Assembly: GCF_000271665.2 (NCBI RefSeq) | Contig: NZ_CP010978.1 | Span: 4,184,501 to 4,248,500, forward strand | Length of the DNA: 64,000 nt | Source of the DNA: Pelosinus fermentans JBW45 | Lineage (GTDB): Bacteria; Bacillota; Negativicutes; DSM-13327 | Reading direction: 5' to 3' | Shown here: in pieces, positions 28,397-46,302 of the stretch | Numbering within the stretch: the first letter of the stretch is position 1 | How the letters are laid out: each line of letters opens with the position of its first letter | Program-made: the position numbers and the translations under genes | The notes under the pieces: model-generated | Seen by the model: only the letters and a program-made list of their open reading frames with translations | Told to the model about the DNA's origin: nothing | The model's database searches: none

Positions 28397-29086
28397 CTAT
28401 TTAAAATTCTGAATTTCAAGAAGCAAATTAGCATACTGACCTTTACTAATATAAATTTTTCCGCTTCTCACAAAAACCAATCCGGCACTGTTCAGTTTAT
28501 CAACACATCTATTAATCGTTTTTACACTTACCCCTATTTCATCCGCAATCTGTTGTCGTTTTTTATCAATGAGCAATACATCGATATTCCCTTGGTTTTC
28601 TTGATAATATTTGATAATATAAGTCTGGATTTTGCGTATGCCTGACAAGAAATTAGCGGTTCCCGTTTTACTTGCCGTAGAATACATTTTCTTAGCAAGA
28701 ATTTGGGATATTTTCAACAAAACTGCATGATCGCACGCAATCCATTTAGCAAAGTCTTTAGCAGTAATCATCAGTACCTTGCAATTATTAACAGTTTCAA
28801 CCGTACTAACGTATTCCATTTCACCGGCTAAAATCTCCAGTTCACTAACAAAACTAATAGGTCGTATTCGCTCAAAGATATAAATCCGCCCATTTTCAAA
28901 TTCATTAATGACCTTCAATTCACCGCCAATAAGAATATAGGCATATTCTACCTTTTCCCCCTTTTTTAACAAAGTTTCCCCGGCAGGTATTTTTTTCAAA
29001 GAAACTTTTGCCCTTATCTTTTCTGGCATTCCGATTAGCAATTCTTTCAATTGAGGCTCACTAAATAAAAAATCATCAAACTGCAT
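28397..29086 (-). CDS. Crp/Fnr-family transcriptional regulator
   Basis: 229 residues from ATG 29086 (GTGAGGTTA ribosome site). A cyclic-nucleotide-binding-like beta roll (KKIPAGETLLKKGEKVEYAY, GGELKVI) precedes a C-terminal HTH_Crp helix (RQQIADEIGVSVKTINRCVD). It lacks the N-terminal cysteine cluster of FNR, so it is not an iron-sulfur sensor of that type. The sensor-domain ligand is unknown. It is transcribed alone, 166 bp upstream of cdd on the same strand, so the pyrimidine operon is a possible but unproven target. Confidence 0.88.
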   Translation of the reverse strand: MQFDDFLFSEPQLKELLIGMPEKIRAKVSLKKIPAGETLLKKGEKVEYAYILIGGELKVINEFENGRIYIFERIRPISFVSELEILAGEMEYVSTVETVNNCKVLMITAKDFAKWIACDHAVLLKISQILAKKMYSTASKTGTANFLSGIRKIQTYIIKYYQENQGNIDVLLIDKKRQQIADEIGVSVKTINRCVDKLNSAGLVFVRSGKIYISKGQYANLLLEIQNFK

Positions 29087-29356
29087 GATTAACCTCACAA
29101 CTTTCAAATTATATCTTTACACTCGCAGAATTATGAAAAATAGTTTTCTTTTTTAAATAGGATATTTTTTCTATTTAAAACTTGGCTCACCATCATTCTA
29201 ATTGTTCTAATAATCTTTTAAAAGGTCATATGTCCTTTTTCTGAAATTTTAGCATACTTAAATTCTCATAACATGTAAATATTTACTTTGATATAAACTT
29301 CTTTCTACCACAGCATTTTCATGTATAAATCACCTGCAAGATTAGATAACAAAAAA

Positions 29357-29379
29357 ACGCCCTGCTCGACACAGGACGT
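29357..29379 (-). terminator. Terminator of the cysteine desulfidase gene
   Basis: ACGCCCTG (29357-29364) pairs with CAGGACGT (29372-29379) with one mismatch, and a seven-T run follows on the minus strand (plus 29351-29357). It lies 60 bp after the stop at 29439. The rest of 29108-29438 shows no gene. Confidence 0.75.
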
Positions 29380-29438
29380 TTCGGTTTCTTTTGGCGTTTC
29401 ACTTACTTATTAGATAAGCTTCACCAACGCTCAACTTA

Positions 29439-30749
29439 CTATTTCTTTTTCAACATAATTTGTAAAATCTGTTCATCCGTTTGACTCATGCCTTGGCAGG
29501 CTAATTCGCCTAAGTTTGCAATGGATTGATCTACATCATTGGCAACAATTCCTTCATATTCTGTAACCCGTATGCCTTCGAGTGCCATTAGTACAGCCTT
29601 ATAAGCAGCTGTAGCTGACGTAGATACTTTCATGGCACAGCTATTGGAAGCGCCATCACAAATGATTCCGGCTACATCACCGATCATATTTGAAATAGCC
29701 ATACTGACGGTCTCAAAATCACCTTTCAATAACCAAGACATTCCGGCGGCAGCTCCCATAGATGCTGTAGTTACGGCGCACAGTGCCGATAATTTAGGAA
29801 GTTTGTCATGAATATAAATCGCCATCATATGGGATAACATTAATGCTCTTATCAGCGTTTCTTCATCGGCTTTTATATGCTGGGCGACTACTATGATAGG
29901 CATTGTTGCGGCTATGCCTTGATTACCAGAACCGGAATTAGTCATTGCCGGCAGGGTTGCCCCCCCCATCCGAGCATCTGAGGCAGCGGCAGTACGCATT
30001 AATATCTGAGTGAACAGACTGTCAGATAACAAGCCTTGATATATCTGACGATTCATGGTTGCACCAATATGCAGCCCGTATTGTCCATCCATACCTACTT
30101 TCGACAGTGACTCATTCAGGGTGGCGGCTTCACGGATAAAGCTAATCATTTCCAACGGTGCTTCTACTGCAAAATTATATACATCACTAGCTCGAACACC
30201 AATTAAAGAGTATTTATCCATGTCAACTGCTATCGTATTTTGTGGCTCATTTTGAAATACGATCTTACCATTTTCCTCAATAAGCACTACGTTGGTATGG
30301 GCATCAGCAATGCAAACCCGTACCCAATCCTCGCCGTGGATAACCCGTGCTTCTGAATAGAGAATATTAGGTACATGTGCAATGGAAAGTTGAACACGAT
30401 CTTCTGCAATCATACGTTTACCAGTCACAATCTGTTCAGGCGTTAGTTTTTTCAGAACCTCCAGCTTGCCTTCAGGATCGCCACCAAGAGCACCGACGGC
30501 AGCAGCAATTAAGAGTCCTGTGGTGCCAGTTCCCGGCACAGCAACTCCCATGCCATTTTTCATCAAATTTGCTGAGACCTTAGCTTCGATTCTTTCCACC
30601 GGTTTTGCCAGTCTCTGTGCGGCAATGGCTGCCGCCAACGCTAATGAAATTGGCTCTGTGCACCCTAAAGCAGGTACGACCTCTTTTTTTACCGCTTTGA
30701 TAAACTCCAACCACAAGGGATTGACTGTTACAGACGATAGTTCCTTCAT
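29439..30749 (-). CDS. cyuA: L-cysteine desulfidase (UPF0597/CyuA family)
   Basis: 436 residues from ATG 30749 (GAGAGGAAG upstream). Family motifs are [51 protein letters not shown] and [20 protein letters not shown]. The conserved Cys in GCTEP and in the last motif are those that ligate a [4Fe-4S] cluster in archaeal CyuA-type desulfidases. The enzyme converts L-cysteine to pyruvate, sulfide and ammonia in the cytoplasm. A sigma-54 promoter lies at 30844-30859, and the gene behind it encodes a sigma-54 activator, so induction by that activator is likely. Confidence 0.85.
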
Positions 30750-30843
30750 ATTAATCTTCCTCTCATTTTCATAAAATAGATTAGTCACCAGTGCAAGAAT
30801 GCCAATCCCTATCCAAATAAATGATCCGCTATCTAATTATTAT

Positions 30844-30859
30844 TGCAAAAAGCATGCCA
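30844..30859 (-). promoter_or_regulatory. Sigma-54 promoter of the cysteine desulfidase gene
   Basis: On the minus strand TGGCATGCTTTTTGCA, an exact fit to TGGCAYG-N4-TTGCA (-24 GG and -12 GC correctly spaced). The -12 end lies about 95 bp ahead of ATG 30749. The adjacent upstream gene encodes a sigma-54-dependent activator. Confidence 0.8.
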
Positions 30860-30864
30860 AAAAT

Positions 30865-30887
30865 AATCCCCCGAAAATCGGGGGATT
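30865..30887 (-). terminator. Terminator of the sigma-54 activator gene
   Basis: AATCCCCCGA (30865-30874) pairs with TCGGGGGATT (30878-30887), followed on the minus strand by ATTTTT. It insulates the regulator gene from the sigma-54 promoter five bases further on. Confidence 0.8.
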
Positions 30888-30948
30888 CATTCTAATTTTT
30901 CTCACTATTAAACGAGAAACACTGACAAATAATTGCGAAATTTCTCAA

Positions 30949-32679
30949 TTATTGCAAAGCATACTTCTTCATTTTGCGGTATAACGTTGCTAAACTGATT
31001 TCCAACGCAGCAGCCGCTTTTTTTTTGCCTTCCACATCTGAACCAAACTCGGCCAGTAAACTAACTAGGCGCTGACGTTCAGGCATATTTTTCATATGGC
31101 CGACTAAGCGATCTGGTAAGTCCCGTACGCTAACCAAAGGCTCTTTTGCTTTTACTACTGCACATTCTACTGCATTTTCTAACTCGCGCACATTACCTAT
31201 CCAATCATGGTTCTGCAGACAGTACAATGCTTCTGATTCAAAATCCTTGAGATTCTTATCGTAAGATGCAGCCAATCGTTGCAAGAAATTTCGCGCTAGT
31301 AGTAAAATATCTTCGACCCGGTGGCGCAATGGTGGTAATACGAGGTTGATTACATTCAAACGATAATATAAATCTTCTCTAAATAATCCTTCTTTAATCC
31401 GCTCAGCCAAATCCCGATTGGATGCTGCCAGTATCCTAACATCAATTGGATTACCCTGAATGCCACCAACAGGCTCCACAATACGATCTTGGATAACCCG
31501 TAGCACTTTCACTTGCAGTGACAGTGGCATATCGCCAATTTCATCCAAAAATAATGTTCCACCATGGGCCATCTGGAATTTTCCTGACTTGCCCCCCCGT
31601 TTAGCACCCGTAAAAGCCCCTTCTTCATAACCAAACAATTCACTTTCCATCAAGGATTCCGGAATAGCTGCACAATTTATTGCGACAAAAGGACCTTCCC
31701 TACGTGCGCTGGCAAAATGAATGGCTTTAGCTAACACCTCTTTACCCGTACCGCTTTCCCCACCAATCAAAATGGTAGCTGACCCTGCAGCTGCTTGCTT
31801 TGCTTCTTCTAAAATCTGCAGGAAAAGAGGATTTTTTCCTATTAAGTCAGAAAAACTTACCGGAGCTACTCGATGGGATCGGCCTATCTGTCCGCCTACC
31901 GTTCTGAAACTAGCAACAACCCCTTGAATGACATCACTATCTACTATTGGCTTAGCACTGATAAAATAATGGTGCTGATGGCCGTGTTGCCATAACTTCA
32001 CTTCCTTGTCGACAAATTGACTACCGTCTCTAAGAGATTCTTCTAACGGTGTTCCAGGAAATATTTCGTTAATGTGAAAACCGAGAACATCGCTAGTTTT
32101 GACTTTTAACAATTTTTCCGCTGCAAAATTCAAATTGCTGATTCTGGCTTGCTGATCAATGGCAATGATTCCTTCTGTAACAAAGTTAAGTACTATTTGT
32201 AGCTGCTTTTTTAGCGCTATCGTCCGTTGCATAGCCTCAACTTCAAGTACTTTGGCTGCTACCAATTCAGCCATCTTTCGCATAAAGGCCAATAAGTTTG
32301 GTCCCTTATGAACAAGTTCTTGCTGCTGCTCTTGCGAAAACGCTACCAGGCCAATTACGCCGATGGTATCCTGACCTAAACGAATGGGACAGCATAATTG
32401 GGCCAGTTCTGTACAAATGGACTTTCTTCCGCAATTTTCGCAAGCATTACTTGTACTTACATCCTTAATCAAATATTCATCGCCGCGACGTAACACCCGG
32501 CTGTAGATAGAATTACTACTCAAAGATTGACCGATAGTCTGTTGATGACATCCGGTTCCGGCTATGCGCACCAAAGTTTCATCAGCAATTGTCACATCCA
32601 TACTCAGCGCGCTGGATATGGCTTCGGCGATTTGCTGCGTTGCTGTCTGAATTTTTTGCAATCTGGTCATGTCTTTCAT
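30949..32679 (-). CDS. Sigma-54-dependent activator with cysteine-rich sensor and PAS domain
   Basis: 576 residues. The N-terminal sensor (about 1-150) contains the cysteine cluster CENCGRKSICTELAQLCCPI near residue 60. A PAS domain follows (about 170-265), then the AAA+ sigma-54 interaction domain with Walker A GGESGTGKE, GAFTGAKRGG (sigma-54 contact loop), Walker B GGTLFLDEIGDM and RVVQD-like region. A C-terminal Fis helix ends KKKAAAALEISLATLYRKMK. GAGGTGAG precedes ATG 32679. It sits just upstream of the sigma-54 promoter for the cysteine desulfidase gene. The cysteine cluster may sense cysteine, sulfide or redox state; that is inference. Confidence 0.9.
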   Translation of the reverse strand: MKDMTRLQKIQTATQQIAEAISSALSMDVTIADETLVRIAGTGCHQQTIGQSLSSNSIYSRVLRRGDEYLIKDVSTSNACENCGRKSICTELAQLCCPIRLGQDTIGVIGLVAFSQEQQQELVHKGPNLLAFMRKMAELVAAKVLEVEAMQRTIALKKQLQIVLNFVTEGIIAIDQQARISNLNFAAEKLLKVKTSDVLGFHINEIFPGTPLEESLRDGSQFVDKEVKLWQHGHQHHYFISAKPIVDSDVIQGVVASFRTVGGQIGRSHRVAPVSFSDLIGKNPLFLQILEEAKQAAAGSATILIGGESGTGKEVLAKAIHFASARREGPFVAINCAAIPESLMESELFGYEEGAFTGAKRGGKSGKFQMAHGGTLFLDEIGDMPLSLQVKVLRVIQDRIVEPVGGIQGNPIDVRILAASNRDLAERIKEGLFREDLYYRLNVINLVLPPLRHRVEDILLLARNFLQRLAASYDKNLKDFESEALYCLQNHDWIGNVRELENAVECAVVKAKEPLVSVRDLPDRLVGHMKNMPERQRLVSLLAEFGSDVEGKKKAAAALEISLATLYRKMKKYALQ

Positions 32680-44955: not shown

Positions 44956-46302
44956 TTACTGAATGCCGAGACGACGGATTTTTTGGTAAAGCAATGGACG
45001 AGCAATACCCAGTAGTTCCGCAGCCTTTTTTTTATTCCCCTGCGTCGATTGCAGCGCGTTTAAAATAACCTCTTTTTCGATAGCCGCTTTCGCCTCCTGA
45101 ATTCCTCGACCAGCAGTGAACTTCCCTTGTTTCTGGATCTTAGGTAGTAACCATTGAAAATGAATCGGCTCAAGAAAACTAGAATTGCAGTGATTCATCG
45201 CCCTTTCGATAGCATGTTCTAGTTCTCGAATATTTCCTGGCCATTCATACGCCATTAAAATTTTCACGGCCTCAGGAGCAATAGCCACTTTTCCTAACCC
45301 CGCCTGTTCTCCATATCGCTCTATGAAATTTTCTATGAGCAGCGGTATATCTGTTTTTCGCTCTCGAAGCGGCGCAATCTTAATAGGAATGACATTCAAT
45401 CGATAATATAAATCCGATCGAAAAGTCCCCTGCTTGACCAGGTCTTCCAAATCATCATTAGTAGCTGCCACAATTCTGATGTTAACGGATATGGGAGCCG
45501 TTCCCCCAACTCGCTCGATTTCCTTTTCTTGTAATGCACGAAGCAATTTGGCCTGGGCGGCCAACGACAATTGGCTGACTTCATCCAAGAATAATGTACC
45601 TTTCTCCGCTATCTCAAATTTGCCCTTTTTCCCCGCCCGGCGCGCTCCAGTAAAGGCCCCCTCATCGTAACCAAACAACTCCGATTCAATAAGTTCATTA
45701 GGAATGGCTGCACAATTGAGCTTAACGAAAGGATGATGCGATCGCCGACTTTCCTGATGCAAAGCGTGAGCGACTAACTCCTTGCCCGTACCCGTTTCGC
45801 CCTGAATCAATACCGTGGAGTTAGCACATGCAGCTCTTACTATTATTGCCCGCAATGCAACAACAGCATCGCTAGAACCGATAATGTTTTCTAAAGAATA
45901 CTTTACTCCAGAATTGTTTTTCAGTTTCTCTTTGTAATAGTCCAGTTCACCACGCAATTCTTCTACAGAATAGATCAGTTTGTCGACCCCTTCAAAAACT
46001 GAGAAGGACATGGCACCGATAATGACACCGTCCTTAACCAAAGGAACTCGATTGCAAATCAAAGGTTTACCTTCACTGTAGAATATTTCACCTAAAATGG
46101 GTTTCCCTGTTTCGAGAACTGCGGGAAGCCGACTTGTTGCCACTACATCCTTGATGTATCGCCCTATAATATCCTCCATTTTCCAGCCTTTTAGCTTCGC
46201 ATAATTTTCTTCTACAAAAACGATTCGTGCTTTATGATCCACTACTACTAATCCATACAGATGAGTACACACTTGCTTCATGATTTCACTGTGCGTTGCC
46301 AC
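44956..46302 (-). CDS. Sigma-54-dependent activator with PAS domain
   Basis: 448 residues. An N-terminal PAS domain (about 10-115, VVDHKARIVFVEENYAKLKG) leads to the AAA+ domain with Walker A GETGTGKE, GAFTGARRAG (sigma-54 contact), Walker B GTLFLDEVSQL and RIVAATNDDL. A Fis-type helix-turn-helix closes it (TQGNKKKAAELLGIARPLLY). It starts at GTG 46302 behind AAGGAGGGG. Such PAS-AAA-Fis proteins often sit upstream of the catabolic operon they control, as here. The PAS ligand is probably the substrate or a derived acid. Confidence 0.92.
   Translation of the reverse strand: MATHSEIMKQVCTHLYGLVVVDHKARIVFVEENYAKLKGWKMEDIIGRYIKDVVATSRLPAVLETGKPILGEIFYSEGKPLICNRVPLVKDGVIIGAMSFSVFEGVDKLIYSVEELRGELDYYKEKLKNNSGVKYSLENIIGSSDAVVALRAIIVRAACANSTVLIQGETGTGKELVAHALHQESRRSHHPFVKLNCAAIPNELIESELFGYDEGAFTGARRAGKKGKFEIAEKGTLFLDEVSQLSLAAQAKLLRALQEKEIERVGGTAPISVNIRIVAATNDDLEDLVKQGTFRSDLYYRLNVIPIKIAPLRERKTDIPLLIENFIERYGEQAGLGKVAIAPEAVKILMAYEWPGNIRELEHAIERAMNHCNSSFLEPIHFQWLLPKIQKQGKFTAGRGIQEAKAAIEKEVILNALQSTQGNKKKAAELLGIARPLLYQKIRRLGIQ

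Follow-up and report, generated by a model that had tools for sequence, protein, structure and literature searches.

The predicted L-cysteine desulfidase gene cyuA of Pelosinus fermentans JBW45 appears to be switched on by a sigma-54 activator encoded directly upstream of it, through a -24/-12 promoter that lies between the two genes. Judging from the DNA and its relatives in other genomes, we give this reading, in which activator, promoter and enzyme gene form a unit of the CdsR-CdsB type, a probability of about 0.88. Sigma-54 and CdsR are already known to control a cysteine desulfidase in C. difficile; what may be new is that such a unit occurs in a bacterium that is probably a diderm Firmicute, that its presence varies patchily from one cyuA gene to another, and that the activator carries a CX2CX5CX6CC motif, the final CC of which tracks cyuA.

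In the mechanism that we propose, the N-terminal GAF-PAS half of the activator (32679->30949) would respond to a high level of cysteine in the cell, or to a signal closely tied to it, and the protein would bind a dyad at 30947-30934, immediately past the stop codon of its gene. Its ATP hydrolysis would open the sigma-54 RNA polymerase waiting at 30859-30844 and turn on cyuA, whose product would break cysteine down into pyruvate, ammonia and sulfide. Read-through from the activator gene would be limited by the terminator between the genes, so that cyuA would depend on the sigma-54 promoter.

Gene order, promoter and enzyme

The window, the whole stretch of 64,000 nucleotides that was analysed, carries on its minus strand, in this order, the activator gene (32679->30949), a palindrome that overlaps the activator stop codon (30953->30928), a terminator (30887->30859), the -24/-12 element, a ribosome-binding site and cyuA, which runs from its ATG at 30749 to 29439. 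The element, TGGCATGCTTTTTGCA, is on the same strand as both genes (30859->30844) and conforms to TGGCAY-N5-TTGCA. The terminator has a stem of 10 pairs (30887-30865) and a T-run that ends at 30859, and the last T of this run is the first T of TGGCA in the -24 element, so that the intrinsic terminator of the activator gene (30859..30887, minus strand) runs into the promoter. The original prediction had claimed an exact -24/-12 match, placed between a sigma-54 activator gene and cyuA and set apart from the former by a terminator, and in all three respects it agrees with what we found. The assignment of 30844..30859 (minus strand) as a sigma-54 promoter draws on the pattern match and on the comparison across genomes described below, and from its position we infer a transcription start for cyuA near 30834. 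A 13-nucleotide look-alike of the -24/-12 pattern, TGGCATTCTTGCA, with a spacing 3 bp too short, lies between the promoter and the start codon (30804-30792, minus strand), and a full pattern match inside the cyuA codons (30555-30540, minus strand) is probably coincidental. Downstream of cyuA a terminator-like hairpin (29354..29382, minus strand) suggests a single-gene transcript; it separates cyuA from a gene for a CRP/FNR-family regulator located directly 3' of it (28397-29107, minus strand).

The genome, one contig of 5.38 Mb, encodes rpoN (PF04552 match at C1:1009228-1009707, E 2.7e-62) and has 43 matches to the sigma-54 activator domain PF00158. The pattern TGGCAYRNNNNTTGCW occurs in it 43 times, compared with 0 times for a reversed-pattern control.

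The product of cyuA, also called cdsB (29439..30749, minus strand), is a predicted L-cysteine desulfidase of 436 amino acids. Its start is likely the ATG at 30749, which is preceded by GAGAGGAAG, rather than a GTG at 30788. The protein matches SDH_alpha (E 2.3e-58) and the solved L-cysteine desulfidases 9he0 and 9fsl (E 2-3e-35), while NCBIfam returned no family for it. When aligned to 9he0, it contains the three Fe-S ligand cysteines and a GCTE motif with the catalytic cysteine and glutamate, the roles of these residues being those described in PMC12647591. Cys30 and the Fe-S ligand positions Cys324, Cys364 and Cys371 are kept in 29 of 29 homologs. The clusters of two relatives, L106 and L043, include a Ribonuc_L-PSP gene, presumably of the RidA type, which would fit an enzyme that forms aminoacrylate.

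The activator and its cysteine motif

The activator gene (30949..32679, minus strand) encodes a CdsR-like protein of 576 amino acids in which Pfam, the translation, an AlphaFold2 model and structural matches point to a GAF domain with the CX2CX5CX6CC motif (residues 80-97), a PAS domain, an AAA+ domain and a Fis-type helix-turn-helix. Pfam identifies Sigma54_activat (E 2.7e-68) and the AAA lid, with PAS slightly over its cut-off and HTH_8 marginal at exactly its cut-off of 22 bits, and GAFTGA is present in the translation. Membership in PrdR (NCBIfam NF041552) was rejected, the score being 389.9 bits against a curated cut-off of 795. A contig search with the activator found four distant relatives, in Azospirillum, Halobacillus and two MAGs.

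No sequence of a solved structure matched residues 1-150 at E up to 1. The AlphaFold2 model of residues 1-275 has a mean pLDDT of 93 and resembles the GAF-PAS sensory half of DhaR, which has unrelated target genes. The match to the DhaR N-terminal half (PDB 4lrx, 4lry, 4lrz) spans both model domains, with Z 16.1 over 239 residues for 4lrz, although identity is 15-18%. Foldseek and VIA-align 2 comparisons also place the model close to GAF domains (SpoVT, 2w1t, Z 17.0) and PAS domains (8bjp, Z 16.1). Matches of a predicted model such as these support the fold only.

The motif in the GAF domain reads C80-X2-C83-X5-C89-X6-C96-C97-P. In a model alignment of 54 rows, comprising the window and 53 loci and leaving out L031 (the same protein), L063, L041, L086, L094, L096, L098 and L105, C80, C83 and C89 are present in at least 90% of the activators. 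The CC at 96-97 is more restricted, being found in 18 of 61 rows, and a cyuA gene lies within 1.5 kb in 15 of the 18 rows with CC vs 3 of the 43 without. The 61 rows include near-copies that cluster on the activator tree, where CC needs just three label changes (40 of the 61 rows are on the tree, 17 of them labelled CC, L085 not), so independent CC events are few. A wider look beyond 1.5 kb covered the CC rows and, among the 40 non-CC rows without cyuA, just L042. Among the remaining CC rows L057 has cyuA downstream, while L079 and L085 do not; L079, with the full motif, precedes a different gene in place of cyuA, and L085 has the CC without the other motif cysteines. For L042 the longer stretches (L045) show no cyuA. 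L076, which is nested in the CC clade, has neither Cys97 nor a cyuA gene in its fetched stretch. The activator of L042 and L045 (G000:C1:2833045-2834778) has CTP in place of CCP and relatives in the genus, and a -24/-12 element lies between its gene and another gene cluster that follows.

CX2CX5CX6CC is a candidate sensor motif. We tentatively suggest that the GAF domain might be a dedicated thiol or Fe-S/Zn sensor, with a metal or cluster held by the CX2CX5C core and open to the action of cysteine itself through the final Cys-Cys. If this were true, an Fe-S enzyme that destroys cysteine would be switched on via a cysteine-reactive metal site of its own activator, and we found no description of such a mechanism among the open-access papers listed by our searches. 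The cysteine-rich GAF domain is of specialist interest as a testable hypothesis, with Cys80, Cys83, Cys89, Cys96 and Cys97 as named residues for probing how such activators sense cysteine.

The activator and the sigma-54 promoter could also control cyuA in response to another inducer, with the GAF cysteine cluster or the PAS domain detecting sulfide, serine, the redox state or the Fe-S status of the cell. The CX2CX5C core need not read cysteine, because it is near-universal in the activator family and is also found beside genes unrelated to cyuA; the gene that follows the full-motif activator of L079 is glyA-like. We nevertheless consider a different inducer rather unlikely, since the final CC tracks cyuA linkage and since cdsB of C. 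difficile is induced by cysteine but not by Na2S (PMC5767170).

Activator and promoter across genomes

A search of 300 genomes of the class gave 13 activators at E <=1.4e-137, including that of the window, and for 12 of these the fetched flank includes a gene of the cyuA family. In the thirteenth, L057, the activator gene comes first in a cluster that also holds a Ribonuc_L-PSP gene, a transporter-like gene and cyuA; the homolog of this transporter in L046 scores slightly under the Trp_Tyr_perm cut-off. A cyuA-family gene is absent from all 21 lower-scoring activator loci that were fetched in the class search. Among the loci fetched from a search of 398 genomes of the phylum, a cyuA homolog lies in the stretch of 6 of 27 analysed (L077-L105, 29 loci, without L087 and L089, in which no ORF with a GAFTGA-like motif was found). 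Several of the phylum-search activators without cyuA reach scores equal to those of linked activators, so the target of an activator cannot be told from its similarity alone. The class and phylum results cover the loci that were fetched, up to 30 at a time. In the order of G354 (5 genomes) a search gave no activators beyond two that were already in the set.

The loci that combine a CC-type activator with cyuA number 16, the 13 best of the class search together with L077, L092 and L099. All 16, the window included, have a -24/-12 element, 12 of them an exact one and 4 with one mismatch, while 100 shuffles of these loci gave means of 0.08 exact and 0.96 one-mismatch elements (maximum 5). By comparison, the element is found at 0 of 9 cyuA genes without an activator, a difference which argues that the -24/-12 match is not due to chance. 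Three of these nine are the paralogs L046, L011 and L012, and TGG[CT]A-N6-TTGC is absent from the whole 14 kb stretch of L046, where cyuA is placed after a transporter gene, and from the 4.3 kb of L011 and L012. Outside the 16 are three loci with non-CC activators and a cyuA homolog: L097 and L102 have an exact element before the homolog, and in L093 the homolog is located upstream of the activator.

The same association is seen when starting from the enzyme. In 30 cyuA loci fetched from a cyuA search of the class (50-100% identity), an exact element lies within 330 bp in 3/3 loci with an adjacent activator and in 0/27 without one; one-mismatch matches are found in three of the latter (L138, L139, L147). 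Nine of the 27 carry a transporter gene in the flank, which leaves room for a more distant promoter in these cases, and one of the nine, L134, closes the L057 cluster, the first gene of which is preceded by an exact element. The idea that a sigma-54 promoter links cyuA to the adjacent activator thus gains support at the level of sequence, the element and the activator being present or absent together.

Close relatives of the enzyme are arranged differently. The cyuA genes of six further genomes from the genus (G003-G007, G009), at 77-82% identity, have neither activator nor element alongside, and a second cyuA in the genome of the window (74-75%) lies behind a transporter-like gene without the element. 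On the tree a supported group of nine (100/99) unites the six genus copies, this second cyuA and two more paralogs and leaves out the cyuA of the window, which sits in a fork without resolved branching order. Some cyuA genes have the activator-promoter unit while close relatives of theirs do not. In G008, of the same genus, two more distant cyuA homologs (41-42%) each lie behind a sigma-54 activator with an exact element. In L058 the activator groups with a second clade, whereas cyuA belongs to the type seen in the window, so activators and enzyme subfamilies have been recombined.

A rival view, in which a sigma-70 promoter or read-through of the activator gene accounts for most cyuA transcription and the -24/-12 element has a minor role, is suggested by these close genus relatives and by the same-genome paralog, which must be expressed otherwise as they have no such element nearby. 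It is nonetheless improbable for the window, where a scan for sigma-70 promoters (>=9/12 matches) listed no site between the activator gene and cyuA and where a strong terminator precedes the promoter. Least probable by far is that the -24/-12 match arose by chance or has no function: the match inside the cyuA codons (30555->30540) indicates that matches without evident function exist, but the element is found where the activator is and missing where it is not (16/16 vs 0/9; 3/3 vs 0/27), the genome count is 43 vs 0 for the reversed control, and we reject this explanation.

Several other loci of the genus also carry cyuA homologs. One genome (L043:5319-12524) has a CC-type activator followed by a TSCPD-domain gene, cyuA, an SDF symporter gene, a pyridine nucleotide-disulphide oxidoreductase gene and the Ribonuc_L-PSP gene, with two -24/-12 elements; in the same genome (L044:3183-6834) a second cyuA homolog lies behind a different sigma-54 activator of 704 residues and has its own -24/-12 element. 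A distant homolog (32%) in the genome of the window (L025, G000:C1:1010621-1011826) is close to rpoN (G000:C1:1009228-1009707), and similar distant homologs are found in other genomes of the genus (L016, L021, L022).

Candidate binding sites and known systems

Directly past the activator stop codon, the core of the palindrome at 30953-30928 is the dyad TGAGAAATTTCGCA (30934..30947, minus strand), which begins 88 bp ahead of the -24 element, counted to the first T of the latter, and would lie about 100-113 bp upstream of the transcription start. The longer pattern TTGNGAAATTTCNCAA has an exact match at one place in the genome, with TGAGAAATTTCGCA as its core; it is found at three further places with one mismatch, but these mean little because a reversed control yields two on each strand. 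In 13 of 13 loci the promoter is preceded by dyads of TGAKA-type half-sites (34 dyads, compared with a mean of 2.3 and a maximum of 7 in 200 shuffles). The dyad starts 88 bp before the -24 element in the window and L053, 86 bp in L054 and L057 and 85 bp in L056, with L055 deviating from this -85 to -88 position. In the other seven loci, TCTCA-N3-TGAGA-like elements are located near -133 to -145 (7/7), -115 to -121 (5/7) and -57 to -66 (5/7), and elements of a similar kind lie between the divergent genes of L092 and of L099. Such dyads also accompany related activators located next to other genes (49 in 16 of 21 loci; shuffle mean 6.8, maximum 16), and the motif was chosen post hoc, after the sequences had been viewed, so TGAGAAATTTCGCA is a strong candidate for the activator-binding site and not a proven one. 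A second possible binding element, TTTCTCG-N8-GTGAGAAA (30898..30919, minus strand), was seen in the sequence; it is weak, and a similar element is found in one relative, L053.

The unit is most readily compared with CdsR/SigL-cdsB of C. difficile, to which we liken it by domains and gene order: there too, an activator with PAS, AAA+ with GAFTGA and Fis domains is encoded directly upstream of the desulfidase gene, which has a -24/-12 promoter and inverted repeats further upstream (PMC5767170; PMC7438776). The SigL promoter of cdsB was mapped by 5' RACE, and induction by cysteine is lost in sigL and cdsR mutants (PMC5767170). The mapped element is ATGGCATGTATTTTGCTAT, and 5'-end sequencing gave the same start, yet SigL control of cdsB went undetected under the conditions used (PMC7438776). 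A difference is that cdsB requires a region 153-223 bp upstream of its start (PMC5767170), further away than the dyad here. The main text of that paper nowhere mentions 'CXXC'. CdsR1/CdsR2 regulons, with sigma-54 and activator sites upstream of cdsB as in the window, have been predicted in several Clostridium; this prediction covers Clostridiales only, and the available text does not mention a cysteine motif in the activator (PMC6615313). Among the open-access papers listed by our searches we found no report of such a unit outside Clostridiales, nor of the cysteine motif.

In E. coli, the desulfidase gene is likewise under cysteine-induced control, together with a partner importer, but cyuPA depends on CyuR and Crp in place of an adjacent sigma-54 activator (PMC9040844). 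The original prediction was thus right that enteric cyuA is controlled by other means. Its description of sigma-54 control as a different regulatory solution holds against the CyuR/Crp system of E. coli but not as something new, the same solution having been published for cdsB of C. difficile with SigL and CdsR (PMC5767170). Cysteine breakdown is a source of sulfide, and its control by sigma-54, published for clostridia, would with the present analysis extend to what is probably a diderm Firmicute (Negativicutes), the presence of LpxC in the genome making an outer membrane probable.

The window contains another sigma-54 activator gene (44956-46302, minus strand), followed by an exact -24/-12 element, TGGCATGCTGATTGCA, at 44662-44647 (minus strand). 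This element lies upstream of further genes on the same strand, which we take to be a CoA-transferase pair and a transporter.
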